From positions 56,191 to 120,190 of the IMG/VR virus record IMGVR_UViG_3300027734_000046: a DNA stretch of 64,000 nucleotides; one strand, written 5' to 3'. This DNA comes from a virus. A model generated the notes under the pieces. The model was not told where the DNA came from and did no database searches. It was given only the letters and a program-made list of their open reading frames with translations. The position numbers and the translations under genes were made by a program. How positions within the stretch are numbered: the stretch's first letter is position 1; each line of letters starts with the position of its first letter. This document shows, in pieces, positions 3,277 to 28,674 of the stretch.

Positions 3277-5913
3277 TTATGGGCAAACAACAACGCTGCT
3301 ACCCTTAATTGTAACATTAATTGATGAAACCAATCCTTTTGAATCTTTAATAGTACATACATACGTTCCAGCTTTTAACCCTGTATAGCTTGTTGTTGTT
3401 GTAAATGCTGAAGTACCAACTTTATACGTATAAGGCGCTGTTCCACCAGAACCACTTAAAGTTATTGTCCCATCATTTCTAGTTTTACATGTTGTGTTTG
3501 TTGATGATACCAATACAACATTTGGTGTTGCTGAATATTTGTATAATCCAATATCCATCGTACTAGTTAAAGGTGCACCAGCAAAATCTTTATTAATTCC
3601 ACTAATCAATGAACCATTACCAATACCATAACTCCCAGGCACCAAAGTAAAATCCCAATTTTCAGGATTTGGTGACGTTGTATTTTTAAATATTTGTTGT
3701 GAACCAGTATAAAGCACTTCTCCTGAATTTAAACTTGCGCCATCTCCGAGTCTAGAAACATTATTAAAACTTGTTCCTTGTCCTGTAGGGAATGTATGTG
3801 AAAACCCACCATTCACATAATAGATATTGTTTTTTCTTTTTATTCTTGTTCCATTAGAATTTGTGACTCTACTATCAGGATAAATTAATTGTAGTCCAGT
3901 CGTACCCCAAATAATATTATTTCTCATGTCGATAAGTGTATCGTAATCATTACCATAACATGCTGGACCTGAAAAGAACGCAAACAATCTATCATTATCT
4001 GCATTGTTATCAAAACCACCATAGTAACCACTTGACGATGGATTGTTTGGTTGACTCCACCTAATACCCTTGGTAGATAATGGCGGGAAAGCCAAAAATT
4101 CTACATCAACTCCTGTTCTTTGCGGCGCTTTGTCTAGTGTTATTGAATTTACACCTAAAGATGTTACTGTTGCATAATCTCTATCCCCACCAGCAAAATA
4201 TGGTGGGACCGCTTTTTCAGGTCCGTACACTGTTGACCCCACTTGAATACCATCCATTCTTGATAAGGATGTTATTTGGTTTGAACCTGATGTAAAGGTA
4301 CCTGTCGGGTCAATATTTCCAGTTGTTAAAAAATTCGCACCCCAAAACCACCATTTAAAATCTTGGCCATCACCATACACATCACCACCAAATCCATTAC
4401 CTGAAAATCTACTTTTGTCGTTTTCTACAACTATATTATTCCAAATTCTTATATTATATTGCGCTGCGGCAAAAACATCACCACAAGGTAAATGTAAACT
4501 AATAACATCCAACGAATTTATTATTAAGTTAAATGCAATTGTATCGTTATTCATACCTGAAGTAATATCATCATTGTCTATGCTTCCTGCTTCAATAAAA
4601 CTACTACAGTCGATTACTTTATTATATACTATTTTTGAATTTTGTAAATTAAACACGTCTAAAGTTATACCACCCATTCCTTGTGTTGATGAATTTCTAC
4701 CTGATTTGGCCCAAGCACCTTTAAAATAATTATAACTAATTTCCAGATTTTTACCATTTAAAGCTTCTATTGCGCCAGCTAATACATCATTAATCCCAAA
4801 CGTATCAACCGTACTTTTAAAGTTGGTGAATACATTTTTAGTAATCTTACTATTAAAAGCACTTACTGAACCAATACCGAATGACATATTACTAAAATAA
4901 CAGTTTTGAACTGTAAAATTAAATACACTACCTTTTCTATCACCATAATCTCTGTTAGTGCCCCAAATTGTATCGGTACCATTAACTTTAGTGTCTTGGT
5001 ATTCACCCATTAACATTCCACCGTAACTATACGCAGGATTTTGTTTATCGGCAACAGGAAAACGGGTATCATTAAATTGTAACCCATCTATTATTATATT
5101 GCTAACACCACCAAATTGTGCAACCCAGTGAGTGGGACCATCTTTATATGGGGATTCAGCCGTTGGAAAAACAAAATTAGGTAATGGCAAAGACTTGTCA
5201 CCATAACTTGAAAACACAATCGGTTTTTCAGGTGTTCCACTAGGTGCGGTAAAATCGTCATACGGCCTATCAATATATGAAAAACTCACAAAATTAAAAT
5301 AACCAAGGGTACCATCATATCCGTTTGCAAACATGTCACCTCTTTTAAACAGTATTGAATCACCAGGCAAGAAAGTAACATTTGGACTTGATGTCATATT
5401 TTGAAGAGCAATCAACGTTTTTTTAGGTGTACTTGGTGATAAACCATCATTATCATCGTTACCTGAAGTACTAAAATAGTATTTTTTATTTGGGCCAGCA
5501 GCAAGTGTTGTAAATGTAAGTTCATTACCATACGAAGTATCAACAGCATTTATAGCAAACGCTCTGATATAATAAGTTGTTGATGGTAATAATGGCATAA
5601 TTCCACCACCACCATCTGGATAATTCGGTGGTATAACGGCAACAAAATGATTAACATAAGGACCAGTACCTGTAGAAGGATAACCTAGTCTATAGTATTT
5701 AACATAAGGGCTTAATTTTGGATTTGGAGAAGTACTCCAAACAACACCTCTTTTTGTTACTGGAGAACCCCCATCACTTGTTACATTACCACCACTTTCT
5801 GCTCTAAGTGCCTCAATACGACTTATCGCATTAGTTGTAACCGTTGGCGCTGTTTGACTAAAACCAAAAATCGTTAATAAACTTAACGTTAATACTAGTA
5901 ATACTTTTTTCAT
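3277..5913 (-). CDS. Secreted beta-helix protein with FN3-like and SprB-like modules
   Basis: 878 residues. It opens with a clear signal peptide (MKK, a hydrophobic run, then GFSQ at about residues 17-20). Residues about 22-140 form a Bacteroidota-type FN3-like module containing RGVVWSTSPNPKLS. Residues about 143-800 look like a right-handed parallel beta-helix: the N-cap YYFSTSGNDDNDG is typical of pectate-lyase-like and surface beta-helix proteins, followed by many NNxI/NCxF-type coils. Residues about 805-872 match a SprB-type repeat (DGTITLSGSGGTAPYTYKV, then GTYVCTIKDSKG). It is paralogous to the second beta-helix of the 13445-17284 protein, sharing QFNDTRFPV. There is no T9SS domain at its C-terminus. 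A signal peptide is unusual in a tail-fibre cluster. It may bind or process surface glycans; no catalytic residues were recognised. Confidence 0.75.
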   Translation of the reverse strand: MKKVLLVLTLSLLTIFGFSQTAPTVTTNAISRIEALRAESGGNVTSDGGSPVTKRGVVWSTSPNPKLSPYVKYYRLGYPSTGTGPYVNHFVAVIPPNYPDGGGGIMPLLPSTTYYIRAFAINAVDTSYGNELTFTTLAAGPNKKYYFSTSGNDDNDGLSPSTPKKTLIALQNMTSSPNVTFLPGDSILFKRGDMFANGYDGTLGYFNFVSFSYIDRPYDDFTAPSGTPEKPIVFSSYGDKSLPLPNFVFPTAESPYKDGPTHWVAQFGGVSNIIIDGLQFNDTRFPVADKQNPAYSYGGMLMGEYQDTKVNGTDTIWGTNRDYGDRKGSVFNFTVQNCYFSNMSFGIGSVSAFNSKITKNVFTNFKSTVDTFGINDVLAGAIEALNGKNLEISYNYFKGAWAKSGRNSSTQGMGGITLDVFNLQNSKIVYNKVIDCSSFIEAGSIDNDDITSGMNNDTIAFNLIINSLDVISLHLPCGDVFAAAQYNIRIWNNIVVENDKSRFSGNGFGGDVYGDGQDFKWWFWGANFLTTGNIDPTGTFTSGSNQITSLSRMDGIQVGSTVYGPEKAVPPYFAGGDRDYATVTSLGVNSITLDKAPQRTGVDVEFLAFPPLSTKGIRWSQPNNPSSSGYYGGFDNNADNDRLFAFFSGPACYGNDYDTLIDMRNNIIWGTTGLQLIYPDSRVTNSNGTRIKRKNNIYYVNGGFSHTFPTGQGTSFNNVSRLGDGASLNSGEVLYTGSQQIFKNTTSPNPENWDFTLVPGSYGIGNGSLISGINKDFAGAPLTSTMDIGLYKYSATPNVVLVSSTNTTCKTRNDGTITLSGSGGTAPYTYKVGTSAFTTTTSYTGLKAGTYVCTIKDSKGLVSSINVTIKGSSVVVCP

Positions 5914-5938: not shown

Positions 5939-6913
5939 TTAACAATTAGTTACATCTATAGTCCATCCACTTGAAACCAGACTTGTATATGCGCTATATC
6001 CTAATGTATTGGCAGATAAACAACCATTACCAGTTTGATTAAATAATGTTATTGTATTTGGATTTTGCCAATACGTAGTTGCACTCAATTTAATTAATGT
6101 GTTAGTTATACCACTATTAGGCAACGAATTATCGTTCAAATATATATACGAAATAAAATTAGGGAATGGATTACCTAACGACCATGGATTAAATGTTGAT
6201 ATTGAATTATAACTTAAATCTAACACCTGCAATCTGCTAGGTAATGGTTGATACGGTGTAAAATTAGTTATTGAATTATAGCTTAAATTTAATGTTTGAA
6301 TACTTGGTATTGGTAATGATGGGTCATAATTTGTGATTAAATTATTATTCAAATAAAGATTTGAAATACCCAAAGGAAAAGGAACTGTTGGGGTGAACCC
6401 TGTCAATAAATTATTATTTAAATATAAATCAGTCAGCCCTTGTGGTAAACTAGTCGGTGTAAATGCTGTTACACTATTATACGATAAATCCAACGTTTGA
6501 ACCGAACTAGGTAATGTTGAAATTCTACTATCAAAGTTATTGATTAAGTTACCACTTAAATTTAAATACGTTAAACCACTTAAATTCTCTAAACCTATTA
6601 TATCCCTTAATCTATTATTACCATACCCTGAAGATATGTCCAAATTGTTAATTAATATTGGGTTGTTAATAGCTGTTGATGCGGTATAGTTACCGTTAAT
6701 TGAATATGTGTGTGATGGTGTATAGTTATCAGAACTTAAATATGTATTTTGAGAGCCATCACCCCAATTTACTGTCATTGTGAAATTAGAGGAGCCCTGA
6801 ACAAAAAAGTTTAACGAATTACCTGTTGAATTAAAAACAAATTTTAATTGTCCTTCCGTAGATGCAGATGTTTTATATGATGAGGCTGTTAAACCAATAT
6901 AAAATAATTTCAT
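5939..6913 (-). CDS. Leucine-rich-repeat protein of the tail-fibre cluster
   Basis: 324 residues. The N-terminal 90 residues include VNWGDGSQNTY and SHTYSINGNY, a PKD-like beta sandwich signature. Residues about 105-270 are leucine-rich repeats of about 22-24 residues, such as LQTLDLSYNSV-type units with LYLNNNLLTGFTP and LDLSYNSISTFNP variants. The C-terminus has a cap with two Cys residues. No signal peptide was seen. LRR domains bind proteins or glycans, and its position among fibre genes, 3 bases after the 123-aa gene, suggests a host-binding role on the virion. No enzyme motif was seen. Confidence 0.75.
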   Translation of the reverse strand: MKLFYIGLTASSYKTSASTEGQLKFVFNSTGNSLNFFVQGSSNFTMTVNWGDGSQNTYLSSDNYTPSHTYSINGNYTASTAINNPILINNLDISSGYGNNRLRDIIGLENLSGLTYLNLSGNLINNFDSRISTLPSSVQTLDLSYNSVTAFTPTSLPQGLTDLYLNNNLLTGFTPTVPFPLGISNLYLNNNLITNYDPSLPIPSIQTLNLSYNSITNFTPYQPLPSRLQVLDLSYNSISTFNPWSLGNPFPNFISYIYLNDNSLPNSGITNTLIKLSATTYWQNPNTITLFNQTGNGCLSANTLGYSAYTSLVSSGWTIDVTNC

Positions 6914-12077: not shown

Positions 12078-13337
12078 TTAAGAGCACAACCACGCATTTA
12101 ATGAACCTGCAAAAGCGTTTGTCGTTCTGTATACATTATATGTTGTTGATATACCATATATATTACCAAATGATAATGTTCCAACTACAGAGTACGGTAT
12201 ATTACCTATACCACTACAACCAGCTGTAGAATCTTTTAAATTAGTTGGTTGTGATAAACTTTGTGGTATAACTAAATAACCATATTCAGGGCTTGCTGTT
12301 GACGGCCAAGTAATATAATTATTTGTAACATTAGCAACCAAAGCAGTATTAGTAAGACCACTTGCTTGTGCTGCAGTTATGCTAGTATTAGGTGACTTGC
12401 CATAATACCACCTATTTCTCCAAAAAGCTGTTATATTTCTTGTAAATGTTGTACCTTGACTATTAGTTGCTGTGATTTTATACAAATCAAGTGCTGTAAC
12501 AGTAGCCGTTGAACTTGAAATATTAATTGATAATGTTACAGGTTGCGTTCCGTCATTTGCCGAACCACTAACCAATGTTGTTGTACTTGGTGATAACTGC
12601 TCTATAGTTATCGTGTTCGCACTTACATTTGTTGAATTTGATGTGGCCCAAGTAAATGTTTGAGAACCAATTGAAATTGGTTGCCCAACTTCATAAACTG
12701 TTGTTAAGTTAGTTCTAGCGAATGATGTAAATGCTGGTACTTGATATGGGTATAATAACGCATCAAACATCTGTTGCATTGTTTGGTTTAAAAATGTAGT
12801 CGATTGCGGTATCCCACCCAACCCTGCTGTTGTGGGTGTAGAATTTGTGTAAGTGGGTGTACTACCAGTAGAAAAACCATTTATTATGATTGATGAACCA
12901 TCACTATTATTTAAAGTTAGTGTACCTAATGTACTATCAGCCGAACCACCCGTTATGAACCCATCAACATTAATAGATGAACCATTGGTATTATCCAACG
13001 TTAAAATACCTGTAACACTAGAATATGTTGCAGCTGTAACAGAACCAGCACCATCAGCTCCAGCAGCACCAGCAGGACCAGCAGCACCAGCAGGACCTGT
13101 AGCACCAGCTTCACCTTCGGGACCCGCAGGACCTCTAAAATCATCTAAGTTAATAGACAATGTATCACCATTAAGTCTATTTAATTGTAGTGTTGTTCCG
13201 TTTAAATTGACGTTATCTATATCTAAACCTTTTAGAAATATAAAATTATTGTCAAGTTCGGCTTGACTTAAGACACTACCCTTTGTTTCGTCACCGTATG
13301 GACTTGTTTGAGTCCTTAATATTAAATTATTTGACAT
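12078..13337 (-). CDS. Tail fibre with collagen-like shaft (419 aa)
   Basis: The N-terminal domain (about 1-68) contains LSQAELDNNFIFLK, a motif common at the base of phage fibres. Residues about 70-100 are Gly-X-Y repeats (GPAGPEGEAGATGPAG onward), a collagen-like triple-helix shaft. A duplicated TLDNTNGSSINVDGF / TLNNSDGSSIIINGF beta unit follows. The C-terminal part begins with MQQMFDALLYPYQVP and matches the C-terminal layout of the 588-aa fibre (LFDDILFPVANP), so the two probably share a tip-type module. Together these indicate a trimeric fibre. Receptor unknown. Confidence 0.75.
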   Translation of the reverse strand: MSNNLILRTQTSPYGDETKGSVLSQAELDNNFIFLKGLDIDNVNLNGTTLQLNRLNGDTLSINLDDFRGPAGPEGEAGATGPAGAAGPAGAAGADGAGSVTAATYSSVTGILTLDNTNGSSINVDGFITGGSADSTLGTLTLNNSDGSSIIINGFSTGSTPTYTNSTPTTAGLGGIPQSTTFLNQTMQQMFDALLYPYQVPAFTSFARTNLTTVYEVGQPISIGSQTFTWATSNSTNVSANTITIEQLSPSTTTLVSGSANDGTQPVTLSINISSSTATVTALDLYKITATNSQGTTFTRNITAFWRNRWYYGKSPNTSITAAQASGLTNTALVANVTNNYITWPSTASPEYGYLVIPQSLSQPTNLKDSTAGCSGIGNIPYSVVGTLSFGNIYGISTTYNVYRTTNAFAGSLNAWLCS

Positions 13338-13361
13338 ATTTGTTGATTAGATACTATATTA

Positions 13362-13425
13362 ATAAAAAATACCCAAATATAAATATTCACCAAAATTGTT
13401 TTGACAAATAAAATATTTGGGTATT
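13362..13425 (-). terminator. Large hairpin terminator after the T9SS-tagged gene
   Basis: Perfect 13 bp arms AATACCCAAATAT (13368-13380) and ATATTTGGGTATT (13413-13425) enclose 32 bases that contain a nested CAAAA-TTG-TTTTG hairpin. On the minus strand the structure ends in TATTTTTT. It lies 20 bases past the stop codon of the 13445-17284 gene and isolates it from the next fibre gene. Confidence 0.65.
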
Positions 13426-13444
13426 CTTATAATAAACTAAAACA

Positions 13445-16400
13445 CTATTGTTTTACAAATAATATTGATTGATTATATGTAATAGCAACATAACTACCTG
13501 AAGTTAAGTTTCTCACACTAACCCAATCACCACCAGACGAATAACTAGAAGTTTTAACTGTAACCCCTAATATATTTTTAATCACCATAGTTCCAGACGT
13601 GTTAGAATTTATATATATTGACCTTCTATCTGAATTATAAAAAAACCTTCTAATATTAACTGAAGAACAAGACCTACTTAAACTATCCGTTGACGGAAGA
13701 CCAATGCAACCTATAGGTTCACTAGTATATGTTCTAGATTGTAAACCATTAATACATGTACTCCATTGACTATAAGTAAATACACATGGTGTTGGAGAAA
13801 CACATGCTCTTTGAACACTATCCGCAGGAGGAACCCCTGTACAACCTACTGGTGTGGATGTATATGTTCTTGTTTGAGTTCCATTAGCACATGTTGTCCA
13901 AATTCCATATGTAAAATTACAAGGTACTATTGGTGATGTACAACTTCTTTGAATACTATCAGTTGGCGGAAATCCCACACATCCAGTTGGAGATGTTACA
14001 TATGGTCTTGTTTGAACCCCATTATTACACGTTGTCCAAGTTCCGTATGTAAAAATACAAGGTGTTGGAGCAACTGAATTATACTGATATATTCCTATTG
14101 AAGGTGTTGCACCAACAATATTTCCTTCAAAATCTCTATTAAGACCTACATTTGTACCATTATTTATGGCATAAGACGTATCACTAGCAATGTGCATATC
14201 CCAATTTTGTGGGTATATGCTAGAACTATCAACAATTAATTTACCATTGATAATTCTTTCGCCTATCGCTAATGTGGTATTAGGCCCTAAAGACGTAGGT
14301 GTAAATGAACCAACCGCTCCCTGATAACCACTAACTAAGTGATAGATATTATTTCTATAAAACGCTTTAGGTCTTTCAGATTGTGTGTATTTAGCATAAA
14401 ACCCATTATTAATCCAAAATACATTATTACGAATATCAAATACAGTATCTGCTGCTTGAACACTATGGTCACCTGACGCTATCGGCCTCCAAGCGTTTTG
14501 GAAGTTTTCTGATGATGGATAACGAGTTGATTTATTAATAGGGTATGGTGGCCAATAAATGAATCCTGTGTTTGCATATGTTTGACCATCACCCATAGCA
14601 TCACCACCAGCATTGTTACCACTAAAACGTGACATAGAACCTTCTACAAAAAAGTTATTCCAAAAATGTAAATTTTTAACCTGTGTTGCATATGTTCCTG
14701 TAGTATTAACATACGCAATGTTGCTACAATTGATAAATTTATTATAGCAAATTGTATCGTCATCTGGGCCTTGTATACCGCCTGGTAAATTTGTGCCAAA
14801 CTCCATACCACCGCTACAATCAATGAATGTATTATAGGCAATGAATGAACTATCAAAATTATTAATAGTTTCAACAGCTCCACCTAATAAACCTGAACTA
14901 GATGAATTAAAAGGATTGGCATAAGCCCACGAACCTGTAATTCTATTATTTGTTATTCTATATTTACTTCCCGATAATAACATTGGGTCAGCACCTATAT
15001 CAGCTTGACTTGCAGTATCTGTTATCCAACCTGTAGATTTAAAATTACTAAATGTATTATTTTCAATCTTAAAATCTCTAACAAAGGCAACAATACCATA
15101 TGCTGTATTACTAAAGTTACAGTTTTTTACCGTGATGTTACTACATTTACAACCATCACTTCCACTACAGTATCCACTATCCCCAAACCAAAGTCCTAGC
15201 GTTGTAAAAGCACCCGAACGTTTGTCATTGACAGGGAATCTTGTATCATTAAACTGTATACCGTCTATCACAATGTAACTTACATTAGCAAACGCCAATA
15301 CACCTTTTTCGTTTGACCTAACTGAACTTGGATAAGGATATAGTAAGTTTGGGCTTTCTAAATTAATATCACCATAATATGTGAATACAATTGGATTAGT
15401 AGCAGTACCTGAAGGGAAGCTTAATCCTTCATATCCACCACCATACCATTTTACAGAAGCTACTGTGCTGAACTCGGTACCATTAGCAAATATTTCACCT
15501 CTTTTAAAAGCAAATGTATCACCAGCAGTTGCAATACTACTTAAAGTATTTAATTTTGCTAGTGTTTTCCAAGGGGTCAATGGATTCTGTGCTTGTGTAA
15601 CACTATACGAATCATTACCAATTGAACTAAAATAAAATTTTCTACCTCTTGTTGTTGGGGATGCACATGTTCTTGTTAAACTGTCTGCTGGAGGAACTCC
15701 CGTACAATTAGTTGGGGAACTCGTAAACGGTCTTGTTTGTATTCCATTACTACATGTTGTCCAAGTTCCGTATGTGAAAGTGCACGGTACTATCGGTGTT
15801 GTACAACTTCTTTGAATACTATCAGTTGGTGGAACCCCAATACAACCTGTCGGTGTAGGTGTATATGGTCTTGTTTGTGTTCCGTTAGAACATGTTGTCC
15901 AACTACCATATGTAAAAGTACATGGTGTTGGAGTAACCGAACCACCGTATTGGTATATACCCATCGAAGGTATAGCACCAACACTATTACCAACAAAATC
16001 GCTTGTAAGACCTACATTAACTCCAGAATTTATGGCTGGTGATGTACTTGTTAATGTATAATCCCAATTTAAAGGGTTAGAGTTTGTTGTATTTGTCCAA
16101 ATAATTCCAGATGTGGAAATCTCAGTACCGTCTAATGTGAAATTAGTAACACTACCATTAGATAATTTATATATGTTGTTAGTGTGACTTAAGTTAGCAC
16201 CATTTAACTGTCCATTTCTTGTTAATGATAAACCATTAGATACCTGAATTATATTATTTTTAAGGATTATAATCCCAGCTGTAGCCTCTGATGTTGACAT
16301 AGAAAACATAATACCGCTACTACCCCCTGGATTTGTATTAGGAACGGTTTGTAACATTACATTATTATAAAATTGTAAGTTTCTTACCGCAGTTTTATAC

Positions 16401-17284
16401 TGTCCACTATTACTAATATAAACTACTGTGTTGTTATTAATAATCTTGTTGTAATATATTTTATTATTTTGAATTAAATTATTAGCAACACCATCATTAT
16501 TGCTACCAAATTCAAAAATACCATTACAGTCATAAAATGTATTGTAAGCAATCACGTTATTTTCAATAACAGAACCCTCTTCAAAAAATTCTACACCACC
16601 ACCATCAAATGTATAATCATAACTAGCGGCATAACAATCGTGAAAGTAGTTGTTAGTAACAATATTATTTGAACTAGATAGTTGAACAGGCACCCCACCA
16701 TAATCGTCATCTGGATTAACAGATGTTGGTGTGTTTCTAATCATCCTTAAATTTCCAATATCACAAGAATCCACGGTGTTATTATTATTGCCTGGTGGAA
16801 AATACACGCCATAACCAGTTCTGTCCATCGTACACTTCCTAATAACTATTCCTGTACATCCTTGATACGTAGCAAATACATTTTGTATCTTAGCTTGAAT
16901 ATATCTATCAGTAGCTGATATTGTTGTATCGCTAATCTTCCAACCATAGAAAGTTAGGTTTGTACAACCATTCAATGTAATTAAAACACTTACTGTAGAG
17001 TTTGTCCCCCAGAATAATGGGTCGGCTCCTGTTCCATACACACCAAAATAAATGTTAGATTTATTTGATAATGTTAATGTTCCCGAGAATTTAGAATCTT
17101 TTGCAAACAATACAGAATCACCATTAGCAACATTGCTTTGTACTTTAGATAATGTTTGCCAAGGCGTTAATGGATTTTGCGCTTGTGTTGTTGTGTAACT
17201 ATCACTACCCGCTGAACTAACGTAAAATTTTCTAGCGCTAGCAAATAATGGAATAAATAAAAGAATTGTTAAAAACTTTTTCAT
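13445..17284 (-). CDS. Secreted double beta-helix protein with TSP1-like repeats and a T9SS sorting domain
   Basis: 1279 residues. Signal peptide at 1-17 (MKKFLTILLFIPLFASA). Beta-helix 1 (about 18-450) begins RKFYVSSAGSDSY and beta-helix 2 (about 545-1070) begins RGRKFYFSSIGNDSY, an internal duplication. Two Cys-rich repeats sit between them (about 453-541) and three more follow (about 1077-1205), all of the form CxFTYxxWxxCxxGxQxR ending in RxC, resembling thrombospondin type 1 modules. The last 70 residues (MVIKNILGVTVKT, then VRNLTSGSYVA and a final LFVKQ) match the type A T9SS C-terminal sorting domain. It should be exported by the Sec and type IX systems of a Bacteroidota cell and displayed or released. 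Flanking hairpins suggest its own transcription unit. Catalytic activity was not identified. Confidence 0.8.
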   Translation of the reverse strand: MKKFLTILLFIPLFASARKFYVSSAGSDSYTTTQAQNPLTPWQTLSKVQSNVANGDSVLFAKDSKFSGTLTLSNKSNIYFGVYGTGADPLFWGTNSTVSVLITLNGCTNLTFYGWKISDTTISATDRYIQAKIQNVFATYQGCTGIVIRKCTMDRTGYGVYFPPGNNNNTVDSCDIGNLRMIRNTPTSVNPDDDYGGVPVQLSSSNNIVTNNYFHDCYAASYDYTFDGGGVEFFEEGSVIENNVIAYNTFYDCNGIFEFGSNNDGVANNLIQNNKIYYNKIINNNTVVYISNSGQYKTAVRNLQFYNNVMLQTVPNTNPGGSSGIMFSMSTSEATAGIIILKNNIIQVSNGLSLTRNGQLNGANLSHTNNIYKLSNGSVTNFTLDGTEISTSGIIWTNTTNSNPLNWDYTLTSTSPAINSGVNVGLTSDFVGNSVGAIPSMGIYQYGGSVTPTPCTFTYGSWTTCSNGTQTRPYTPTPTGCIGVPPTDSIQRSCTTPIVPCTFTYGTWTTCSNGIQTRPFTSSPTNCTGVPPADSLTRTCASPTTRGRKFYFSSIGNDSYSVTQAQNPLTPWKTLAKLNTLSSIATAGDTFAFKRGEIFANGTEFSTVASVKWYGGGYEGLSFPSGTATNPIVFTYYGDINLESPNLLYPYPSSVRSNEKGVLAFANVSYIVIDGIQFNDTRFPVNDKRSGAFTTLGLWFGDSGYCSGSDGCKCSNITVKNCNFSNTAYGIVAFVRDFKIENNTFSNFKSTGWITDTASQADIGADPMLLSGSKYRITNNRITGSWAYANPFNSSSSGLLGGAVETINNFDSSFIAYNTFIDCSGGMEFGTNLPGGIQGPDDDTICYNKFINCSNIAYVNTTGTYATQVKNLHFWNNFFVEGSMSRFSGNNAGGDAMGDGQTYANTGFIYWPPYPINKSTRYPSSENFQNAWRPIASGDHSVQAADTVFDIRNNVFWINNGFYAKYTQSERPKAFYRNNIYHLVSGYQGAVGSFTPTSLGPNTTLAIGERIINGKLIVDSSSIYPQNWDMHIASDTSYAINNGTNVGLNRDFEGNIVGATPSIGIYQYNSVAPTPCIFTYGTWTTCNNGVQTRPYVTSPTGCVGFPPTDSIQRSCTSPIVPCNFTYGIWTTCANGTQTRTYTSTPVGCTGVPPADSVQRACVSPTPCVFTYSQWSTCINGLQSRTYTSEPIGCIGLPSTDSLSRSCSSVNIRRFFYNSDRRSIYINSNTSGTMVIKNILGVTVKTSSYSSGGDWVSVRNLTSGSYVAITYNQSILFVKQ

Positions 17285-17330: not shown

Positions 17331-17363
17331 AATAATTAATATATTAATTATATATTAATTATT
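17331..17363. repeat. AT-only perfect inverted repeat between fibre gene and T9SS-tagged gene
   Basis: Arms AATAATTAATATA (17331-17343) and TATATTAATTATT (17351-17363) with a 7-base loop. It abuts the stop codon of the 1996-aa fibre and lies upstream of the secreted protein gene. It may be a weak terminator, regulator site or promoter part. The rest of 17285-17330 is A+T rich without a recognised site. Confidence 0.5.
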
Positions 17364-20300
17364 TATACCGATATATCACCCGATAAATACCAAACGTCCC
17401 CAGACTTCTTTATTAATGTTGCAAAACTATACTGGCTTCTCAACTTTAATGCACCTCCAGAGCTTAATATAGTTACACCAGTACCACCACTGATAGATGT
17501 TTGACCAGTACCATTTTGAACAATACCAATTTGAACACCAGTGCTAAAATTGGTTGTAGCACTAGGTGGTATGGATACAACATTAGCCGTAGAACTAGTC
17601 ATTTCAATAATGGTATTATTATTAGCCGCTGAAAGCTGTAAAGTATATGCCGTTCCAATAATAGCACCAAATGACACATTACTACTTGCTGATGTAATTC
17701 CTGTGATGGTATTTCCATTTACAGAACCTGTACCTGAAAGAGTGATTGTACCTGTTGCAGAATTATATGTACCACCAGTTACAGCATTTATTGTATATGT
17801 AAGTGCTGTACTACCACCTGAAGTAACACTCAACACATTACCTGACAATGTTGTTGCGCTTATATATGTTGGTAAATTAAAATAGGTTGTTGCTGATATT
17901 GTTGTTGCTGTTAACCCAGATACAATTGTATTACCAGTTACTGTTAATGTATTTGCTGTCAGGCCAGCTAATCTAGCATTACCAGTCACGTTTAACGTAT
18001 TTGCAGTTAATCCACTAGTAAATATTGTTGCACCATTTACCGTTCCACCAGAAAATGTAGATGAACTAGCAGTAAACGGGTCAACTTGAACAATTTTTGT
18101 AACCCCACTCAATCTAATTCTTAAATCATTATTTTGAATCCATATATCACCATCGTTTGGTGATGTCGGCGCTGTTGAACCAGTAATGAGCCTTAATGAA
18201 GCTTGAGTTGCAGTTGCGGCTGGAAGTGTTAATCTAGCAGTAGGTGTTTCTACACCAATACCAATCATACCTGTCGCTGTTGCACCTGTTGATGGATTAC
18301 CAGTTGTTGTTGCATATGTATTTGAACCAAAAATAACACCACCAATATTAATTCGATTTGATGGTGTTCCAGACAAACCTATATTTGTACCTACGATAAT
18401 ATTATTTGAACCTAAGTTACCACGCCAACCCGTTTGATATCCTAACAATATTGATTGGCTACCACCAGTCATAAAATAGCCAGCTCTATAACCAATAGCC
18501 ACTAAATCCGATGGTCCGCCAACAATTGACCTACCTGATTCAGAACCCATGATTATTGATGTTGTAACACCTGTCGAGCTAATACCAGCACTTTGACCAA
18601 CAATTATTGAAGTTGATGACCCCGAAGCGTCCAGCCCAGCATTATTACCAACAAAAACAGAATTTAACGCAGTTGTTGCACCATTACCAGCAGAACTACC
18701 AATAAAAATAACGTTTGAAGTTACAAAACCACTAATTGATGAATCAGCACCAGCAGCATTACCAATATAAATTGAGGATGAAGGTGTATAATTTCTAGCA
18801 CCTGCCGACAATCCAATACCGACAGAGCTACTTAACGTAACACCATTAATACCCGCATTAGAACCAATGTACACTGACGCAGAAGCACCATTTGTATTTA
18901 AACCAGCACTATTACCAATAAAAACAGAATTTGTTGAAGTACCTGACAAATCTTTGCCAGCTTGAAAACCAATAACTACTGTATTTGCAAATGTGCTAGC
19001 TGTATCAGCAGTATATTGTCTAGATTGAAAACCAGCTTGATTACCAATAATAACCGCACTAGTTGCTTGACCCTTATTAGTTTTATACGCTGATGTCCCA
19101 ATAACAACACTACTCGATAACCTACTAGATGCACGAGCGGCTTCAGTACCAATAACGACCGTATTTTGCGAATTACCCGAAACAAATGCCCCCGCTAAAT
19201 TACCTATAAAGGTTGAATTAGCAATTGTACCTGCATTTGTCGAACCAGTTGCTGGAAAATAAGGATTTGTCGCAGCATTTGTTCCAATTGCAATAACATT
19301 AGCCGCATTATTTGCTGTTGCCGCACTCAAAAGACCGTTAAAACCTATAACAACACCATATGTTAAACCAGTAGACCTAGAACCAGCATCAGTACCAACT
19401 AAAACACTACCATATGACAAATAATTATTAAGACCAGCCCTGTAACCAATATAGTCAGAATAATCATTACCCGTAGCACCACTACCAGCTTGATAACCAA
19501 TGAAATTAAAAAATTTAGTATTAGTTGTACCACTACCAGCTTCATAGCCAATTATATTACCATATTGTATATTACTAGATAATTGACCAGCTGAAGCACC
19601 AATAAGTGTTGTACCTGTTATAGCTGACGCTTGATAACCAGCTTGGTTACCAATAAAATTTAAATCACTATTTACGGTTACATCTGAAAAAAGAACACCC
19701 AAACCCGCATTGTAACCAATAAAATTTGAGAAAGTTATACCAGTTGATGATTCACCAGCACTAGTACCAATAAAATTTGAAGCTGATGTGTTTCTAGCAC
19801 CATCACCAGCAGCAGAACCAATAAAAGATGACCCCCCTATATTCCTAGCACCATTACCAGCACCATACCCCATAAAATTTGAATAACTTGACTCACTTGC
19901 ACCACCACCAGCATCACTACCAAATAAATTTGAATTAGTAATATCCGTTGCCTCCTTACCAGCATCCTTACCAATAAAATTTGAATTGGTAATACCAGAA
20001 GCAGAACTCCCAGCATTTGAACCAATAAAATTTGAAGAGGCTAAATCAGAACCGTTCGATGCTGCATTGTAACCAATAGCATTTATTTTTAATATATTAC
20101 CAAACCCATCAGTATTATTAATACCATAACCAGCAGTATCACCAATAAAATTTGAACTAGTAACACCCGTTGTAAGTCTACCAGCATTATAACCAATGAA
20201 ATTTGAACGGCTTGTCGCACTTGCCCCATCACCAACATTACTACCAATAAAATTTGAATATATTGAATCGTTAGCGCTAATTCCAGCAGAATTACCAATA

Positions 20301-23300
20301 AAATTTGAATATGTTACACCAGTTGCATTTTGACCAGCATCTGAACCAATAAAATTAGAGTCATCTGAGTTAATTGCTTGATACCCAGCACCACCACCAA
20401 TAAAGTTTGAATTACTAGAACTAGACGCATAAATACCAGCATTTTGACCGATAAAATTTGAACCAGTAACACCAGTTAGTTCAGAACCAGCATAATTGCC
20501 AATAAAATTTGAGCTTTGAACATTACTTGCCAAATTACCAGCTCCGATTACAGCAAAAAATGAATTAGTTATACCACTCGAAGAAGCACCAGCTTCGGTA
20601 CCAATAAAACTAGATTGATATATATCAAATGTGTTAGTACCAGCGTTATCACCAAAAAAATCTGCCAATTGGGAATCAATATTATTTGCCCCAGCATTTT
20701 TACCAATAAAGTTCGAGCGAGTAGTGCCCGTACTATTACTACCAGCACCTTGCCCAACAACAAACATATCGTTACCCAAAGCCTCAGCACCAGAACCGAT
20801 GGCTATTGAATCGCTAGCTGAAACAACTGGTGGTGTTGTTGGATTTGTTGATGGTTCAGCGTAGTATTTTAAAGAAACCGTTGACGCACTGCCTGTTAAT
20901 CCAGAAACTGGATAAGCATGTAGAACACCATCAGTATCAATACTAACAACAAATGTATCAGCTGTTGTTGCTGTTAATCCTTGAAATCTAACAGGGTTTG
21001 TTGCTGCTGATATGTGTAATGTGTTGGTTGCAGCTGTTGTACCAAAACCAGTGTTTCCTGATGCATCAACATATAATCTAATTGTACCAGCACCGTTAGC
21101 GATAACGATGCTATTGGTTAAACCACTTGTAAGTTGTGGTATGTTATTACCAATAACAAGGTTATTGCTTCCTGTTATAATACCCTTACCAGCATAATTA
21201 CCAATATAAATATTATTATCACCACTTGTTTGTCCAGAGCCAGCTAGTAAACCAATTAAAATAGTATTGTTTAAATTAGCAATACCTGTATAACCACTAT
21301 TTAATACCCCCGTAGCCCACCCAATACTAGTATTACCTGAACCCGTTTGATTATGATACAATGCTCCTTGACCAACACCCGTGTTATTAATACCTGTTGT
21401 ATTATTATATAACGCGGCGTAACCAATACCTGTATTATAGTTACCTGTTGTGTTAAATCTAAGAGCAACGCTACCAGTACTAGTATTTCCAGTACCAATA
21501 GTACTAGTAGCTAATGACGCATAACCAATTGCTGTGTTTGAGTTACCTGTAGTGTTTACAAGTAGAGCACTAGACCCAACAGCTGTATTAAAACTACTAC
21601 CAGTTGTGTCTCTTAATGTACCATTACCAACACCTGTATTACTACCACCAACAGCAAGTTTACTCAACGAACCGTAACCAATCGCAAAATTTAAATTACC
21701 TGTTGTATTTGCAGCTAAAGCACCAGAGCCAATTGCTAAATTTCTAATTCCCGTAGTATTTAATGATAAACTACCCGCACCAATAGCAGTATTTTCATAA
21801 CCAGTAGTATTGTTAGTTAACGCACTAGTACCAATTGCGTTATTAGTATATCCAATTGTATTTTTTGCTAAAGCTTGATAACCGATTGCAGTATTGCTAT
21901 AACCACTTGTAACCCCTGATAATGAACCAGCACCAATACCCACATTACCACCAAAATTAACACCAGAATCAATTGTTGTAAAATTACCAGCACTATTACC
22001 TAAAAATAAGTTATTGGTACCATATGAATGAATAAATCTATTTGAATTCTGATTAATAACACCAGAACTTGATGATGTGGTACTAGGTATACCAACAGTT
22101 GTTGCCGATAAATCACCGTTTACCGTAAACCCACTAACTGTATTAAAGTTTGTTGTAAATGTTCGACCACTAGAATCATTTATTGTAAATGTATTTGCTG
22201 AAGATATATATCCAAAACTAGTAATAACCGTATCAGTATATCCACTTGTAAATCCTGAAACATCAAACACACCACGACCACTCAATGCCAACCAATTAAG
22301 TGTATCACCTGTTGGTGGTGTAGCACTAGGCCCAGCATTAGCAGATATTACAAAATAATCTTTATTATTACCACTATATGTAACAACCGTATCTGCTGTA
22401 TATGCAGACACCGCCCTCCAATTACCAGCATAATACAAACCAGTACGGCTATTGCTAACATTTGAATAAAACGTAACAACACCACTGTTTTTATTATAGG
22501 TACCACCAGTTACAGTCATATCTGTAGCCAATATACTTAGGCTTACTGTTAATGGTGAGTTATTGTTTTGATTAATGGTTAAATCATAATCACCCTGACT
22601 AAATGTAAAACCAGTCACATAAACATCTTGTGGTAACCCATTATATTGTGTTGCCGATATCGTTGTTGCTGAAAAAGTATTTGCTGTTAAACCACTAGTA
22701 AATATTGTCGCACCACCAACAGAACCACCAGTAAAAGTATCTACTGGTAAATTAAGATATGTTGTTGCTGATATTGTATTAGCAGATAATCCACCAGTGA
22801 ATAAAGTAGCCCCATTAACGGTACCACCAGTAAAGTTACCAACTGGCAGATTAAGGTATGTTGTTGCCGATATTGTATTACCACTAAGTCCGTTGGTGAA
22901 TAAAGTAGCCCCGTTAACGGTACCACCAGTAAAATTACCAACTGGTAAGTTAAGATATGTTGTGGCGCTAATTGTATTTGCGGTTAAACCACTAGTAAAT
23001 ATTGTCGCACCACCAACTGAACCACCAGTAAAGTTACCAACTGGTAGGTTAAGATATGTTGTTGCTGATATTGTATTACCACTAAGTCCGTTGGTAAATA
23101 AAGTAGCTCCGCTAACAGTACCACCATCAAAAGGGTCAATGGTTTTTAATACTAAATCATTATCTGCAATACCATTATTATACCAGTATTCAATCACACC
23201 AGAACCAGAAAAAATACCAACGGTCAACCCCTTTGTTCTTTGTAATGATAGTATATTAGTATTAGCGTCTGTAACACCACTCCATGGACCGTAACGGTTG

Positions 23301-23353
23301 TCCAATACTTTTGGTGAGTTACTATTTATATTGTCACTAAGATTTATTCCCAT
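17363..23353 (-). CDS. Giant tail fibre with tandem shaft and 17-residue head repeats (1996 aa)
   Basis: The largest gene here. Residues about 75-220 are five copies of a 33-residue shaft unit (SGLTANTISATTYLNLPVG-type). At about 300-360 is a CBM5/12-like module (YYAGNWRAVSAYTADTVVTY, then a late NWLALS) also present in the 1582-aa fibre. Residues about 450-735 carry 17-residue units of NTAIGYxALxxNTTGxx type, and about 848-1655 carry units of SNFIGxxAGxxATGVTx type. The C-terminal 340 residues return to SGLTANTLTVTGN shaft units and end in a beta-rich domain with no S74 chaperone. Predicted trimeric fibre or adhesin. The repeats make it prone to length variation by recombination. Confidence 0.8.
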   Translation of the reverse strand: MGINLSDNINSNSPKVLDNRYGPWSGVTDANTNILSLQRTKGLTVGIFSGSGVIEYWYNNGIADNDLVLKTIDPFDGGTVSGATLFTNGLSGNTISATTYLNLPVGNFTGGSVGGATIFTSGLTANTISATTYLNLPVGNFTGGTVNGATLFTNGLSGNTISATTYLNLPVGNFTGGTVNGATLFTGGLSANTISATTYLNLPVDTFTGGSVGGATIFTSGLTANTFSATTISATQYNGLPQDVYVTGFTFSQGDYDLTINQNNNSPLTVSLSILATDMTVTGGTYNKNSGVVTFYSNVSNSRTGLYYAGNWRAVSAYTADTVVTYSGNNKDYFVISANAGPSATPPTGDTLNWLALSGRGVFDVSGFTSGYTDTVITSFGYISSANTFTINDSSGRTFTTNFNTVSGFTVNGDLSATTVGIPSTTSSSSGVINQNSNRFIHSYGTNNLFLGNSAGNFTTIDSGVNFGGNVGIGAGSLSGVTSGYSNTAIGYQALAKNTIGYTNNAIGTSALTNNTTGYENTAIGAGSLSLNTTGIRNLAIGSGALAANTTGNLNFAIGYGSLSKLAVGGSNTGVGNGTLRDTTGSSFNTAVGSSALLVNTTGNSNTAIGYASLATSTIGTGNTSTGSVALRFNTTGNYNTGIGYAALYNNTTGINNTGVGQGALYHNQTGSGNTSIGWATGVLNSGYTGIANLNNTILIGLLAGSGQTSGDNNIYIGNYAGKGIITGSNNLVIGNNIPQLTSGLTNSIVIANGAGTIRLYVDASGNTGFGTTAATNTLHISAATNPVRFQGLTATTADTFVVSIDTDGVLHAYPVSGLTGSASTVSLKYYAEPSTNPTTPPVVSASDSIAIGSGAEALGNDMFVVGQGAGSNSTGTTRSNFIGKNAGANNIDSQLADFFGDNAGTNTFDIYQSSFIGTEAGASSSGITNSFFAVIGAGNLASNVQSSNFIGNYAGSELTGVTGSNFIGQNAGIYASSSSNSNFIGGGAGYQAINSDDSNFIGSDAGQNATGVTYSNFIGNSAGISANDSIYSNFIGSNVGDGASATSRSNFIGYNAGRLTTGVTSSNFIGDTAGYGINNTDGFGNILKINAIGYNAASNGSDLASSNFIGSNAGSSASGITNSNFIGKDAGKEATDITNSNLFGSDAGGGASESSYSNFMGYGAGNGARNIGGSSFIGSAAGDGARNTSASNFIGTSAGESSTGITFSNFIGYNAGLGVLFSDVTVNSDLNFIGNQAGYQASAITGTTLIGASAGQLSSNIQYGNIIGYEAGSGTTNTKFFNFIGYQAGSGATGNDYSDYIGYRAGLNNYLSYGSVLVGTDAGSRSTGLTYGVVIGFNGLLSAATANNAANVIAIGTNAATNPYFPATGSTNAGTIANSTFIGNLAGAFVSGNSQNTVVIGTEAARASSRLSSSVVIGTSAYKTNKGQATSAVIIGNQAGFQSRQYTADTASTFANTVVIGFQAGKDLSGTSTNSVFIGNSAGLNTNGASASVYIGSNAGINGVTLSSSVGIGLSAGARNYTPSSSIYIGNAAGADSSISGFVTSNVIFIGSSAGNGATTALNSVFVGNNAGLDASGSSTSIIVGQSAGISSTGVTTSIIMGSESGRSIVGGPSDLVAIGYRAGYFMTGGSQSILLGYQTGWRGNLGSNNIIVGTNIGLSGTPSNRINIGGVIFGSNTYATTTGNPSTGATATGMIGIGVETPTARLTLPAATATQASLRLITGSTAPTSPNDGDIWIQNNDLRIRLSGVTKIVQVDPFTASSSTFSGGTVNGATIFTSGLTANTLNVTGNARLAGLTANTLTVTGNTIVSGLTATTISATTYFNLPTYISATTLSGNVLSVTSGGSTALTYTINAVTGGTYNSATGTITLSGTGSVNGNTITGITSASSNVSFGAIIGTAYTLQLSAANNNTIIEMTSSTANVVSIPPSATTNFSTGVQIGIVQNGTGQTSISGGTGVTILSSGGALKLRSQYSFATLIKKSGDVWYLSGDISV
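18390..20815 (-). repeat. 51-bp coding repeats, SNFIG subtype
   Basis: About 45 diverged 17-residue units with SNFIGxxAG or related cores, encoded on the minus strand of the 1996-aa fibre. Most spacings are 51 bp, with a few longer units. Confidence 0.8.
21150..22000 (-). repeat. 51-bp coding repeats, NTAIG subtype
   Basis: About 15 units with core NTAIGxxALxxNTTG. The period is again 17 residues, so this subtype and the SNFIG subtype share length but differ in sequence. Confidence 0.8.
22690..23130 (-). repeat. 99-bp tandem repeats of the fibre shaft
   Basis: Equivalent bases occur at about 22698, 22797, 22896, 22995 and 23094, exactly 99 bases apart, giving five copies of a 33-residue unit. 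Some neighbouring copies differ at only a few bases, as in AAAGTAGCCCCATTAACGG versus AAAGTAGCCCCGTTAACGG. Confidence 0.9.
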
Positions 23354-23358: not shown

Positions 23359-25125
23359 TTAATTATTTCTAAATTCTAATGTTTGTTGCACAGTAGGATA
23401 AACACTCCAATGCATTTTATAGTTAATTCCAGACCAATAAGATTCTGGACTTTTAACGGGTTGTAAAACGGCTGTTGTAATAAAACTATTATCAATATTA
23501 CCAAAATTAAAACCAGTCTCCCACCATAATGTTTTTGTTGTATATCCAGAATAATAAGCAACCCAAATAAATTCACCAGTATTTAGTGTATTATATGGTA
23601 TTGATATCGTACCAGATGCTGATGATAAAACTTTATTTGCTGTACCAGCAGATATAGTATCCGCAATATCCTGAGCCGTTGGCAATGTATTTGATTTACC
23701 CCAGAAATATGGGTATATACCTGTTATAGTAAATGTTGTTGAAGAAAAATTACTACTAGCTGCTTGTGGTGCGTTAACAGAACGCACAGCTGGTGTTCTT
23801 GTATCAACAACTCCTTTGTTATTATTTTTAGAAGACCCAGAGGCATAATTACCGTCACCGTTATAAATTGTTGTTGATGAATTACCCACCACAGGTGCTG
23901 GTATAACATACGATTCGGAATACGACGGTGTCATTGTGTACCTAAAATTAGGGTTATTAGGATTCGGATAGGTAAATTGATTTGGAACAGCTGTTGTTGA
24001 AGATACCGCAAACGTCGTATCGGTAAATAATGAAGAACCATCCCTTAATACCCTTAGCTGTGAAAAAGCACCTGCGTCATTTTTAACACCAAACACACTA
24101 ATAGTTGGTGAATATGTTACACCAATCTCTAATGTTTGTGTTGATGGACCAGTCATTGTTATTGTTGGTATTGTGTATGTTGGATTAGCAACAGGAAATA
24201 AAATATCATCAAACAACTGAACCAATGTTCTACCTGTTAATAATGAAACAGTTGTTCCAGCTGATAACCCACCAATACCCCTATCCATTGCTAACCCTCC
24301 ATCTAAAGCAGTATTATAAAGAGAATATAACGAATTACCGTTCCTACCTAAACCAGTATTTGCTGATACCGTAATCCCAACGTTTGAAAGATTTGAACCA
24401 TCACCATAATATGTTGATGCACTAACAGTCGTAGCTGATATGGTACCCATATTAGCAGTTGTTGCTGAAATCAGTCCAGAACTAATAGATACAGCATTTA
24501 ACGTATTAAATGTTGCAGCACTATTAACGGTTAAATTACCACTAATAGTTAAACCTGTCATACTATTTACCCTCTGCGTAAATGTTGCACCGCTAGAATC
24601 AAAAATACTAAATGTATTATTTTGATATGTAAAACCAGTAACACGTATATCCGTATACCCACTTGCAAATCCAACAACAGGAAATGTACCACCACTATTA
24701 TTAATAAACGTAACAACACCGTTATTTTTGTCATAAGTACCACCAGTTACCCTCATATCTGTAGCTAGTATCGATAAAGATTCCGTTGTTGACCAAGTGT
24801 CGTTTCTACTTATGGTTAAGTTATAGTTAGCAACATCAAAAGTTAAACCAGTCACATAAACATCGTCAGATGGTTTAAAAAATCCAGTCACGTCAAACGT
24901 TCCACCACTAATATTAGTAAAAGTGATAATACCTGTAGTATCATTATAAGTACCGCCAGTTATTACAGCTTCAACATTCAATCCATCGGTTATAAAATTA
25001 GCTAAAGTACTTAATGCAACTTTTTTTGTTTGGTTACCATTAACAATAGGCATTACATCATTATTGGTTAATGATGTGGCAAATGTTAATTGACTAATTT
25101 TTTTATTTTCGTTTTGTGCTGGCAT
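23359..25125 (-). CDS. Modular tail fibre (588 aa)
   Basis: The N-terminus (KKISQLTFATSLTNNDVMPI, then a TKKVALSTL segment) is a motif common at the start of Bacteroidota phage fibres. Repeated beta units of SLSILATDMRVTGGTYDK type are shared with the two giant fibres. The C-terminal 290 residues start at LVQLFDDILFPVANP and correspond to the C-terminal module of the collagen-like fibre. It lies 5 bases from the start of the 1996-aa fibre and is probably cotranscribed with it. Predicted receptor-binding fibre. No enzyme motif seen. Confidence 0.7.
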   Translation of the reverse strand: MPAQNENKKISQLTFATSLTNNDVMPIVNGNQTKKVALSTLANFITDGLNVEAVITGGTYNDTTGIITFTNISGGTFDVTGFFKPSDDVYVTGLTFDVANYNLTISRNDTWSTTESLSILATDMRVTGGTYDKNNGVVTFINNSGGTFPVVGFASGYTDIRVTGFTYQNNTFSIFDSSGATFTQRVNSMTGLTISGNLTVNSAATFNTLNAVSISSGLISATTANMGTISATTVSASTYYGDGSNLSNVGITVSANTGLGRNGNSLYSLYNTALDGGLAMDRGIGGLSAGTTVSLLTGRTLVQLFDDILFPVANPTYTIPTITMTGPSTQTLEIGVTYSPTISVFGVKNDAGAFSQLRVLRDGSSLFTDTTFAVSSTTAVPNQFTYPNPNNPNFRYTMTPSYSESYVIPAPVVGNSSTTIYNGDGNYASGSSKNNNKGVVDTRTPAVRSVNAPQAASSNFSSTTFTITGIYPYFWGKSNTLPTAQDIADTISAGTANKVLSSASGTISIPYNTLNTGEFIWVAYYSGYTTKTLWWETGFNFGNIDNSFITTAVLQPVKSPESYWSGINYKMHWSVYPTVQQTLEFRNN

Positions 25126-26970: not shown

Positions 26971-28674
26971 TTATCTAGCCTTCAATTCTTTTATTTTTAT
27001 TTCCAAGTCATTAATTTTAATTAATGCCTCTTGAAGAGATTTTACCGTTAATGCTAAAATACCATCATAATCTAAACCATAAACACCATCCTTTTTTTCA
27101 CCATCACCCAAAACCAACTCTGGCGTGGTTTCTAAAACGTCTTGTGCTATAAATCCATGTCTTTTAATACCAACATATTTGTTAAATTCAAATTTTGCTG
27201 GTTTTAATTGTAAAATAATTGATGAGCTATCACCTGAAATGTATTCAATATTATTTTTTAATCTTTTGTCTGAGGTTCCACCACCTGGTGTACTTAATAC
27301 GCCAGCATCCGTTAATGAAAAAATAAGACTTTTATACCCATCATCAATGATTTCTATGTCACCAGCAAGATTAAGTCTAAATGTTTTTGATGCCTTTGCC
27401 GCACCAAGTGCCGTGTTTGTAACACTTATAAAATCAACATAATCGGTACCACCAATTGTATTACTACCGCTGATATCAATAAATGCGTTTGCAGGACTAC
27501 CATTAGTTATTACACTACCTTTACCTGATAATATAGTACTAGCAATACCACTAAAACCACCGCTAACAGTATTATTCACATAAGCATCACCTTTTACGAC
27601 CAATTTAGAGCCGTCCCATGTTAAATTAGCACTAGTTGCTGTTTTGCTAGGTGTAATTTGATAAAGTATTCTATTGTCCGTACCACTTTCACTTACTATG
27701 TTAGTTGCTAACGAAGCAGTTCCGTCTAAAGAACCTATCACTGTTGTGGCACTTATTGTATTTGCTGTTAAACCACCAGTAAATATTGTTCGACCACTTA
27801 CAGTACCCCCACTTAATGGTAGATAAGCACCTGATGCAGATGAACTACCTGTATACGCAGACAGGCTTATTGTAAACGCTGAATATCCATCAGCCCTATT
27901 TTGTCTTAACGTTATTGTATTTGAACTTAACGTAAACCCTGTTACAAAAGTATCTGCTGTTACAGGTAAATTAAGATATGTTGTTGCGGATATACTTGCA
28001 GCCGTTAAACCACTAACTATTCTTGTATCACCACTAACATCTAGTGTGAACTGAGGTGAAGTGGTTAATATACCCAACCTACCACCACTAGTATTGGTAA
28101 ACCTAGCTATTGCCGTAGTATGACCCCATATATCCACAAAATTTTGATTGCCACCACCAATCCTTAAAGTACTACTATCAATCGATTTAAGAACAACCAT
28201 TTGTGCATAGTCTGTTGGCCTTAAAAAAGATATGCCACCAGAATCAGAATTAATTGTTAATCCATCAGGTATATTACCGCCACTATATGAACCAACGGTT
28301 GGCGTTGTTCCAATTAATACTCTACCACCAGAACTATTTGCTAATCTAGTTGTTCCAGAAGAAGTTAATTGACCACTAACAGTTAATCCACTCATACTGT
28401 TAATAGTTGCTGAGAATGTAACACCACTCTCAACTATTGAAAATGTATTATTTGTTGTCGTATAACTAAAAGAAGTTATTGAACCACCACCTCCACTAGT
28501 ACTTCCAGAACTAGATACATTACTCCAAAGATTACTACCATTTTTATTGATATATATTGTACCAGTACTTTTATCTGTAAACAAAGTTCCTATTGGCGCT
28601 AAATGCGTCGGTACACCAAGTCCACTTTGTATTGAACCTGAATTTAAACCATCCTCTCTTATTTCTATTGCCAT
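26971..28674 (-). CDS. Tail fibre with C-terminal S74 intramolecular chaperone (567 aa)
   Basis: Shaft modules include TISATTYLNLPV and a QNRADGYSAFTISLSAYTG segment nearly identical to one in the 1582-aa fibre. Residues about 468-567 form a peptidase S74 chaperone: SDKRLKNNI starts it, with HGFIAQDV and a coiled C-terminal helix. In this family the Ser and the Lys five residues later mediate self-cleavage after trimer folding, and both are present here. The mature fibre would be about 467 residues. This is a strong sign of a trimeric beta-helical host-binding fibre. Confidence 0.85.
   Translation of the reverse strand: MAIEIREDGLNSGSIQSGLGVPTHLAPIGTLFTDKSTGTIYINKNGSNLWSNVSSSGSTSGGGGSITSFSYTTTNNTFSIVESGVTFSATINSMSGLTVSGQLTSSGTTRLANSSGGRVLIGTTPTVGSYSGGNIPDGLTINSDSGGISFLRPTDYAQMVVLKSIDSSTLRIGGGNQNFVDIWGHTTAIARFTNTSGGRLGILTTSPQFTLDVSGDTRIVSGLTAASISATTYLNLPVTADTFVTGFTLSSNTITLRQNRADGYSAFTISLSAYTGSSSASGAYLPLSGGTVSGRTIFTGGLTANTISATTVIGSLDGTASLATNIVSESGTDNRILYQITPSKTATSANLTWDGSKLVVKGDAYVNNTVSGGFSGIASTILSGKGSVITNGSPANAFIDISGSNTIGGTDYVDFISVTNTALGAAKASKTFRLNLAGDIEIIDDGYKSLIFSLTDAGVLSTPGGGTSDKRLKNNIEYISGDSSSIILQLKPAKFEFNKYVGIKRHGFIAQDVLETTPELVLGDGEKKDGVYGLDYDGILALTVKSLQEALIKINDLEIKIKELKAR

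Follow-up and report, generated by a model that had tools for sequence, protein, structure and literature searches.

Why should a gene in a phage tail-fibre array encode a protein that begins with a predicted signal peptide and ends in what resembles a sorting domain of the bacterial type 9 secretion system (T9SS)? The gene in question occupies positions 13445–17284, on the minus strand, of a 64,000-nucleotide stretch of DNA (hereafter the window), which corresponds to bases 56191–120190 of the 120,190-base virus record IMGVR_UViG_3300027734_000046. A reading of the window made from its letters alone (the sequence-only reading) had proposed that this is a moron-like unit whose product uses the T9SS of a Bacteroidota host, an interpretation that our analysis partly supports and whose underlying observation it partly confirms. 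The explanation we favor, with a probability of about 0.6, is that this accessory phage gene belongs to a family also found among the T9SS cargo of Chitinophagaceae, and that its product would be exported by the T9SS of the infected cell and act on glycans. The gene and its parts are as follows.

13445–17284, minus strand: whole gene, 1279 amino acids plus stop codon, an uninterrupted open reading frame (ORF)
17234–17284, minus strand: predicted Sec signal peptide, residues 1–17 (MKKFLTILLFIPLFASA), by a simple heuristic
15950–17233, minus strand: beta-helix domain A, residues 18–445, GH136-like by structure model and profiles, in a family that includes Chitinophagaceae T9SS cargo
15647–15922, minus strand: two TSP1-like Cys/Trp repeats, residues 455–546, by sequence reading
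14084–15643, minus strand: beta-helix domain B, residues 548–1067, a paralogue of A (31–33% identical)
13667–14059, minus strand: three TSP1-like repeats, residues 1076–1206, by sequence reading
13448–13666, minus strand: probable divergent type A T9SS sorting domain (C-terminal domain, CTD), residues 1207–1279 (73 residues), from profile, shuffle, structure-model and hhalign evidence

The C-terminal domain as a candidate sorting tag

The description of the product as a 1279-residue beta-helix/TSP1-like protein with a signal peptide holds up: the reading frame is unbroken, a beta-helix is predicted for domain A, five TSP1-like Cys/Trp repeats are present, and the N-terminus, MKKFLTILLFIPLFASA followed by RKFY, fits a Sec signal peptide under a simple heuristic. 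The type A CTD that the sequence-only reading had also proposed is harder to recognize. A scan of the whole protein returned no T9SS CTD match, whereas its last 79 residues, scanned alone, match TIGR04183 as the sole NCBIfam model at E ≤ 10 (E 0.0097, 15.9 bits; curated cut-off 23 bits) and PF18962 as the sole Pfam model (E 0.047, 14.4 bits; cut-off 27 bits). Among the orthologues, the last 74 residues of L002 (23.2 bits, E 5.2e-5) and L006 (25.4 bits, E 1e-5) pass the TIGR04183 cut-off, while those of L023 (20.4 bits, E 3.8e-4) and L007 (14.2 bits, E 0.032) stay below it. TIGR04183 was thus the top NCBIfam match for all five CTD-type C-termini scanned alone and lay above cut-off in two; a sixth CTD, that of L149, scores 17.6 bits, again below cut-off. 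PF18962 matches L002, L006 and L023 below its cut-off and gives no match to L007 at E ≤ 1.

We also compared these domains with a model of 15 Chitinophagaceae CTDs, the non-redundant set out of 30. The window CTD scored 12.0 bits, exceeding 1999 of 2000 of its own shuffles; L002 and L006 each beat all 2000, L023 beat 1997 and L007 1995, although two of 10,000 pooled shuffles of the five phage CTDs exceeded the window's 12.0 bits (best 14.7 bits). By these scores the window match appears to exceed chance; taken alone it is weak, and the orthologues carry the case. When the five phage CTDs were aligned to the 15 host CTDs with hhalign (probability 90.8, E 1.2e-6), the conserved G and the L..G.Y of the C-terminal half were present within the 38 aligned columns. 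An AlphaFold2 model built on five sequences (mean predicted local distance difference test score (pLDDT) 82.7, predicted template-modeling score 0.36), shows a seven-strand immunoglobulin (Ig)-like CTD with per-block pLDDT of 81–92, and its structural matches include the T9SS CTD chains 5m11 (Z 8.0), 8glj (Z 7.6) and 8glk (Z 7.5). Seven strands are likewise stated for type A CTDs in the available text of two papers (PMC4804311, PMC12618676). A PDB sequence search with the C-terminal profile gave four weak matches (best E 0.07), with no T9SS protein among them.

Searched genome-wide, TIGR04183 does not pick up the window gene, and with the threshold at E ≤ 10 matches arise in 13 of 14 control genomes; weak genome-wide matches are therefore no evidence. 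When viral contigs were searched for further proteins bearing this CTD, the only ones recovered were contigs known to carry the gene or its relatives. Overall, the C-terminal domain looks like a divergent type A sorting domain, which probably, but not certainly, works.

Beta-helix domains and bacterial relatives

Domain A is modeled as a parallel beta-helix (12 sequences, mean pLDDT 74.6), and the four best PDB chains that Foldseek finds for this model are GH136 lacto-N-biosidases. VIA-align ranks other carbohydrate-active beta-helices above GH136, and tailspikes are also among the structural matches. Domain A shares the right-handed beta-helix of the lacto-N-biosidases (LnbX, ErLnb136, TnX and BsaX), and a 23-sequence domain-A profile matches three GH136 chains (E 8.3e-16, 6.6e-13 and 9.5e-12); all three align at the N-terminal cap, and TnX and BsaX also at the C-terminal one. 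The NCBIfam LnbX model itself matches five of the 23 family members at E ≤ 0.01, the window not among them; one phage relative, L022, matches at 4.2e-12, far under the full-length cut-off. Six acidic residues in mid-domain (D176, D177, D206, D210, E215 and E241 in domain numbering) are invariant in all 23 sequences. Some bacterial relatives adjoin genes that we take to be polysaccharide genes, namely UDP-sugar dehydrogenase-like (L068, L078), flippase-like (L064, L075) and tyrosine-kinase-like (L076) ones, L075, L076 and L078 sharing only the N-terminal cap with domain A. Because of the GH136 similarity, the invariant acidic residues and these gene neighborhoods, a glycan-active role is likely for the protein. 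Of the purposes raised by the sequence-only reading, glycan remodelling thus gains support from the GH136 similarity, while exclusion of other phages and adhesion stay conjectural. The available text on ErLnb136 gives D568/D575 as its catalytic Asp pair, so that 411/418, a pair also considered, was rejected; unlike that enzyme, which requires a helical partner domain (GH136I), the phage gene has no such domain evident in its layout (PMC7335108).

Although a first scan of bacteria with the window protein as query found nothing, a scan with the domain alignment recovered five contigs from Chitinophagaceae metagenome-assembled genomes (MAGs) with domain A homologues 59–61% identical. The link to Bacteroidota drawn by the sequence-only reading is thereby borne out and narrowed to one family. 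By eye, the five homologues combine a start resembling a signal peptide with domain A and SprB-like repeat arrays, and the contig end truncates every one of the genes; in L028, the single one scanned, the SprB match reaches 17.7 bits, below the cut-off of 28. All five MAGs encode SprA and hold 31–58 TIGR04183 matches each at E ≤ 0.001. Among 294 genomes from the family of one of these MAGs, 31 match domain A at E ≤ 1e-5, many at the N-terminal cap only. The bacterial ORFs fetched with a domain-A score above 400 bits number ten. The C-terminus is closed in five of them (L124, L125, L127 and two in L128), each of which ends in a type A CTD, and the other five continue past the edge of the stretch. 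Where the domain-A score is weak (<100 bits), four of six closed ORFs have a CTD match.

The phage protein thus resembles the Chitinophagaceae cargo (L027–L031, L063–L073, L124–L128) in domain A, in its signal-peptide-like start and, for the five complete strong homologues, in the type A CTD. The bacterial proteins differ in the canonical PNP motif of their CTDs and, in many cases, in their SprB-like repeat arrays, whereas the duplication of A and B with TSP1-like linkers is a feature of the phage gene found in none of the Chitinophagaceae proteins examined. A midpoint-rooted tree built from 23 domain-A sequences places the seven phage rows in a single group (support 92/89, under the tool's star), which adjoins the five MAGs in a joint group supported at 100/100.

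Phage family, module exchange and genomic setting

We compared 16 distinct phage family members, including a second paralogue in the window (3277–5913); three of them (L151–L153) are 90–93% alike, so the 16 are not independent. Distant beta-helix matches (L016 and L155–L157, of which L155 and L156 lack a signal peptide) were left out, and neither the identical copies L001, L003 and L005 nor L085/L008 (98% identical, a single record truncated at the contig end) were counted separately. All 16 have signal-peptide-like N-termini by the same heuristic. The CTD occurs in six (the window gene, L002, L006, L007, L023 and L149) and is therefore a module rather than the family core. An SprB-like end occurs in three (L004, L022 and window 3277–5913), the assignment for L004 being weak (15.6 of 28 bits), while seven (L025, L144, L146 and L151–L154) have neither module and end after the beta-helix. 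TSP1-like repeats accompany the CTD in all six of its carriers and also occur in L004 and L022; window 3277–5913 and the seven members lacking a C-terminal module have none. The T9SS tag accordingly seems to be an option, added to a signal peptide and beta-helix that are conserved. This exchange is seen most directly where the same gene of 263–266 amino acids follows the cargo in L006, L007, L023 and L146, the cargo being A plus CTD, B plus CTD, A plus CTD and A alone, respectively; between L023 and L146, the neighboring gene is 99% identical and the cargo 75%. Separately, the CTD-less proteins of L025 and L154 have a common short Lys/Phe...NSLP-like tail. L025 also encodes, adjoining its domain-A gene, two proteins that are tail-fibre-like by eye with signal-peptide-like N-termini (1820–2902 and 2906–5677), and the array in L154 is related to that of L025.

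The gene appears to be accessory, as its description as moron-like had implied, and spread over several genomic contexts. Among 29 viral loci that share the neighbor 23359–25125, domain A is present in the fetched stretch only in two identical copies and L085; none was found in the other 26, for which ≤10 kb was fetched on each side, some stretches being short or cut. A tblastn search of deposited phage records at E ≤ 0.001 found no relative of the gene, and a plasmid search gave only three matches, 23–27% identical. L001 and L003 each contain a DNA copy that is 100% identical through 19,837 bp, and L005 one of 14,585 bp. This freshwater-type phage is a large myovirus-like one, because the 120,190-base record has a tail-sheath match and both tail-sheath and terminase matches occur in a 168,871-base record that agrees with the window at every base of the 19.8 kb fetched; the terminase model found no match in the 120-kb record. 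The placement in a tail-fibre array is confirmed, with the gene on the minus strand: a tail-fibre/baseplate array surrounds the gene, with PHROG tail or virion matches for 12078–13337, 17363–23353, 26971–28674 and 28681–29880, and none for the neighbors 23359–25125 and 25136–26947. Domains A and B evolve under purifying selection, with ratios of non-synonymous to synonymous substitution rates (dN/dS) of ~0.07–0.28 against three phage relatives each. Of the two flanking hairpins on which the idea of an independent unit had drawn, the downstream one is borne out as a strong stem with a run of T's after it (z −4.16; 0 of 200 shuffles as good), although the terminator scan did not list it, its loop region being longer than that scan allows. 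The upstream one, made up of A and T alone, is weak (z −2.09; 7 of 200 shuffles). Two further features of the window are given here.

13361–13430, minus strand: terminator-like hairpin 3' of the gene, AATACCCAAATAT...ATATTTGGGTATT, then a T run
3277–5913, minus strand: second secreted paralogue, with a signal-peptide-like start, a beta-helix resembling domain B (judged from the sequence) and, at the C-terminus, an SprB repeat

In this second paralogue, the SprB repeat scores 37.4 bits against a cut-off of 28 when the last 107 residues are scanned, and relatives were found in three identical records only. Elsewhere, the window encodes a leucine-rich-repeat/PKD protein (5939–6913, minus strand), whose relative in L022 (53% identical) is fused to an apparent beta-helix end, an ArdC-like anti-restriction protein (2006–3247, minus strand), and a glycan cluster (32392–52506, plus strand) with glycosyltransferases, an NAD-dependent epimerase, a HAD/nucleotidyltransferase fusion and a UDP-GlcNAc 2-epimerase; five of the ten cluster genes given to Pfam matched.

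Export, function and significance

In our preferred explanation, the phage shares the family of this accessory gene with Chitinophagaceae, in which its relatives are T9SS cargo, and may have captured it from such a host. During infection, the Sec signal peptide would bring the protein to the periplasm, where the Ig-like domain at its C-terminus, serving as a degraded type A sorting tag, would be taken across the outer membrane by the host's PorV/SprA T9SS, such that the infected cell probably displays or releases the protein. Outside, the two GH136-like beta-helix domains, with the TSP1-like repeats as spacers, would bind a glycan, belonging either to the cell surface or to the exopolysaccharide matrix, and probably cleave it. 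The benefit may be the escape of progeny, or an alteration of receptors such that other phages adsorb less.

Several observations weigh against this explanation, the strongest being that the CTD is missing from 10 of the 16 phage members, including L146 at the locus where L023, L006 and L007 bear one. The window CTD lies below both curated cut-offs, and the five aligned phage CTDs lack PNP, a motif with two prolines that never vary among the 15 host CTDs; the available parts of the T9SS literature hold no statement that PNP is required for export. Generic Ig/Fn3 folds match the CTD model as well or better (DUF3244, Z 9.4), the domain evolves fast (dN/dS 0.18–0.61, some dS saturated), and two of the six closed bacterial ORFs with weak domain-A scores show no CTD match. 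Nor did TIGR04183 give a match at E ≤ 0.001 in any of 24 virus records (23 of the 29 neighbor-sharing loci plus L016), one of which, G008, holds the gene in cut-short form. Together with the signal-peptide-like N-termini of all 16 members, the scarcity and weakness of the tag would suit a Sec-exported, T9SS-independent glycan enzyme, periplasmic or released at lysis, in which the CTD-like domain would be a remnant or would serve as an additional binding module. We consider this unlikely, given that the CTD is kept at the extreme C-terminus of six distinct phage proteins, ends all five complete, strongly matching bacterial homologues that were scored, and scores above the TIGR04183 cut-off in L002 and L006. 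As to origin, the candidate phage host is proposed from gene kinship only, and the domain-A tree, which fits exchange with Chitinophagaceae, does not by its midpoint root give the direction of transfer; host-to-phage capture nevertheless seems the likelier one.

Catalysis faces objections of its own. The four top GH136 matches of the domain A model have low TM-scores (0.25–0.49) and high root-mean-square deviations (10–16 Å), the window sequence alone matches no GH136 chain in the PDB at E ≤ 10 and none in NCBIfam, the region of the catalytic Asp pair could not be aligned confidently enough to map the pair onto domain A, and domain B has no equivalents of the invariant D206 and D210. This last point, the SprB-like repeat arrays of the MAG homologues and the TSP1-like repeats, which elsewhere are adhesive modules, would be expected of a secreted adhesin or decoy without enzyme activity, binding matrix or host surface in an SprB-like role. 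That prospect strikes us as doubtful, since the acidic residues invariant across 23 domain-A sequences and the GH136 similarity fit catalysis. A virion tail fibre or tailspike, with receptor-binding or depolymerase beta-helices and an N-terminus that only resembles a signal peptide, would explain the position in the tail-fibre array, the tailspikes among the structural matches and the signal-peptide-like start of a tail-fibre-like neighbor in L025. It is nonetheless highly improbable: a signal peptide would be expected to export the chain before assembly, relatives occur in other contexts, such as ahead of the 263–266-residue gene in four phages, and the closest bacterial kin are secreted-looking proteins beside genes that we take to be folP-like and DoxX-like.

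Phage-encoded T9SS cargo as such is already known. Cryophage has three T9SS-tagged genes, for which hijacking of host export and superinfection exclusion were proposed (PMC7468147, 2020); as here, these are Bacteroidetes phage genes with type A sorting domains, but that phage is 76 kb, its cargo (endoglucanase, GH39 and PA14, variable between variants) has other domains, and the available text tells of neither a bacterial source family nor module exchange at a locus. Similarly, crAss-like BACON cluster 2 phages have ORFs with T9SS sorting domains, located upstream of the head section and one of them BACON-fused (PMC6949934, 2019); their cargo is different, and a role in host export is not developed in the available text. 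A literature search on phages and T9SS, partial in its coverage, found no paper on the present cargo family. What is new is the cargo family, its bacterial kin, the exchange of modules at one phage locus and the second secreted paralogue in the window.

With little confidence, we suggest a broader scheme for large Chitinophagaceae myoviruses, which would maintain GH136-like, Sec-exported proteins of host origin as a cassette open to exchange. By swapping the C-terminal module (T9SS CTD, SprB repeat or none) at fixed loci, such phages would set the site of the enzyme in or on the infected cell, and these proteins, together with the phage's glycosyltransferase/nucleotide-sugar cluster, would rewrite the glycan coat of that cell. 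Taken together, the locus offers a concrete case of a phage apparently using its host's T9SS, tied to a bacterial cargo family and a candidate host lineage. Because one locus exists both with (L006, L007, L023) and without (L146) the sorting domain, the benefit of a T9SS tag to a phage is directly testable.

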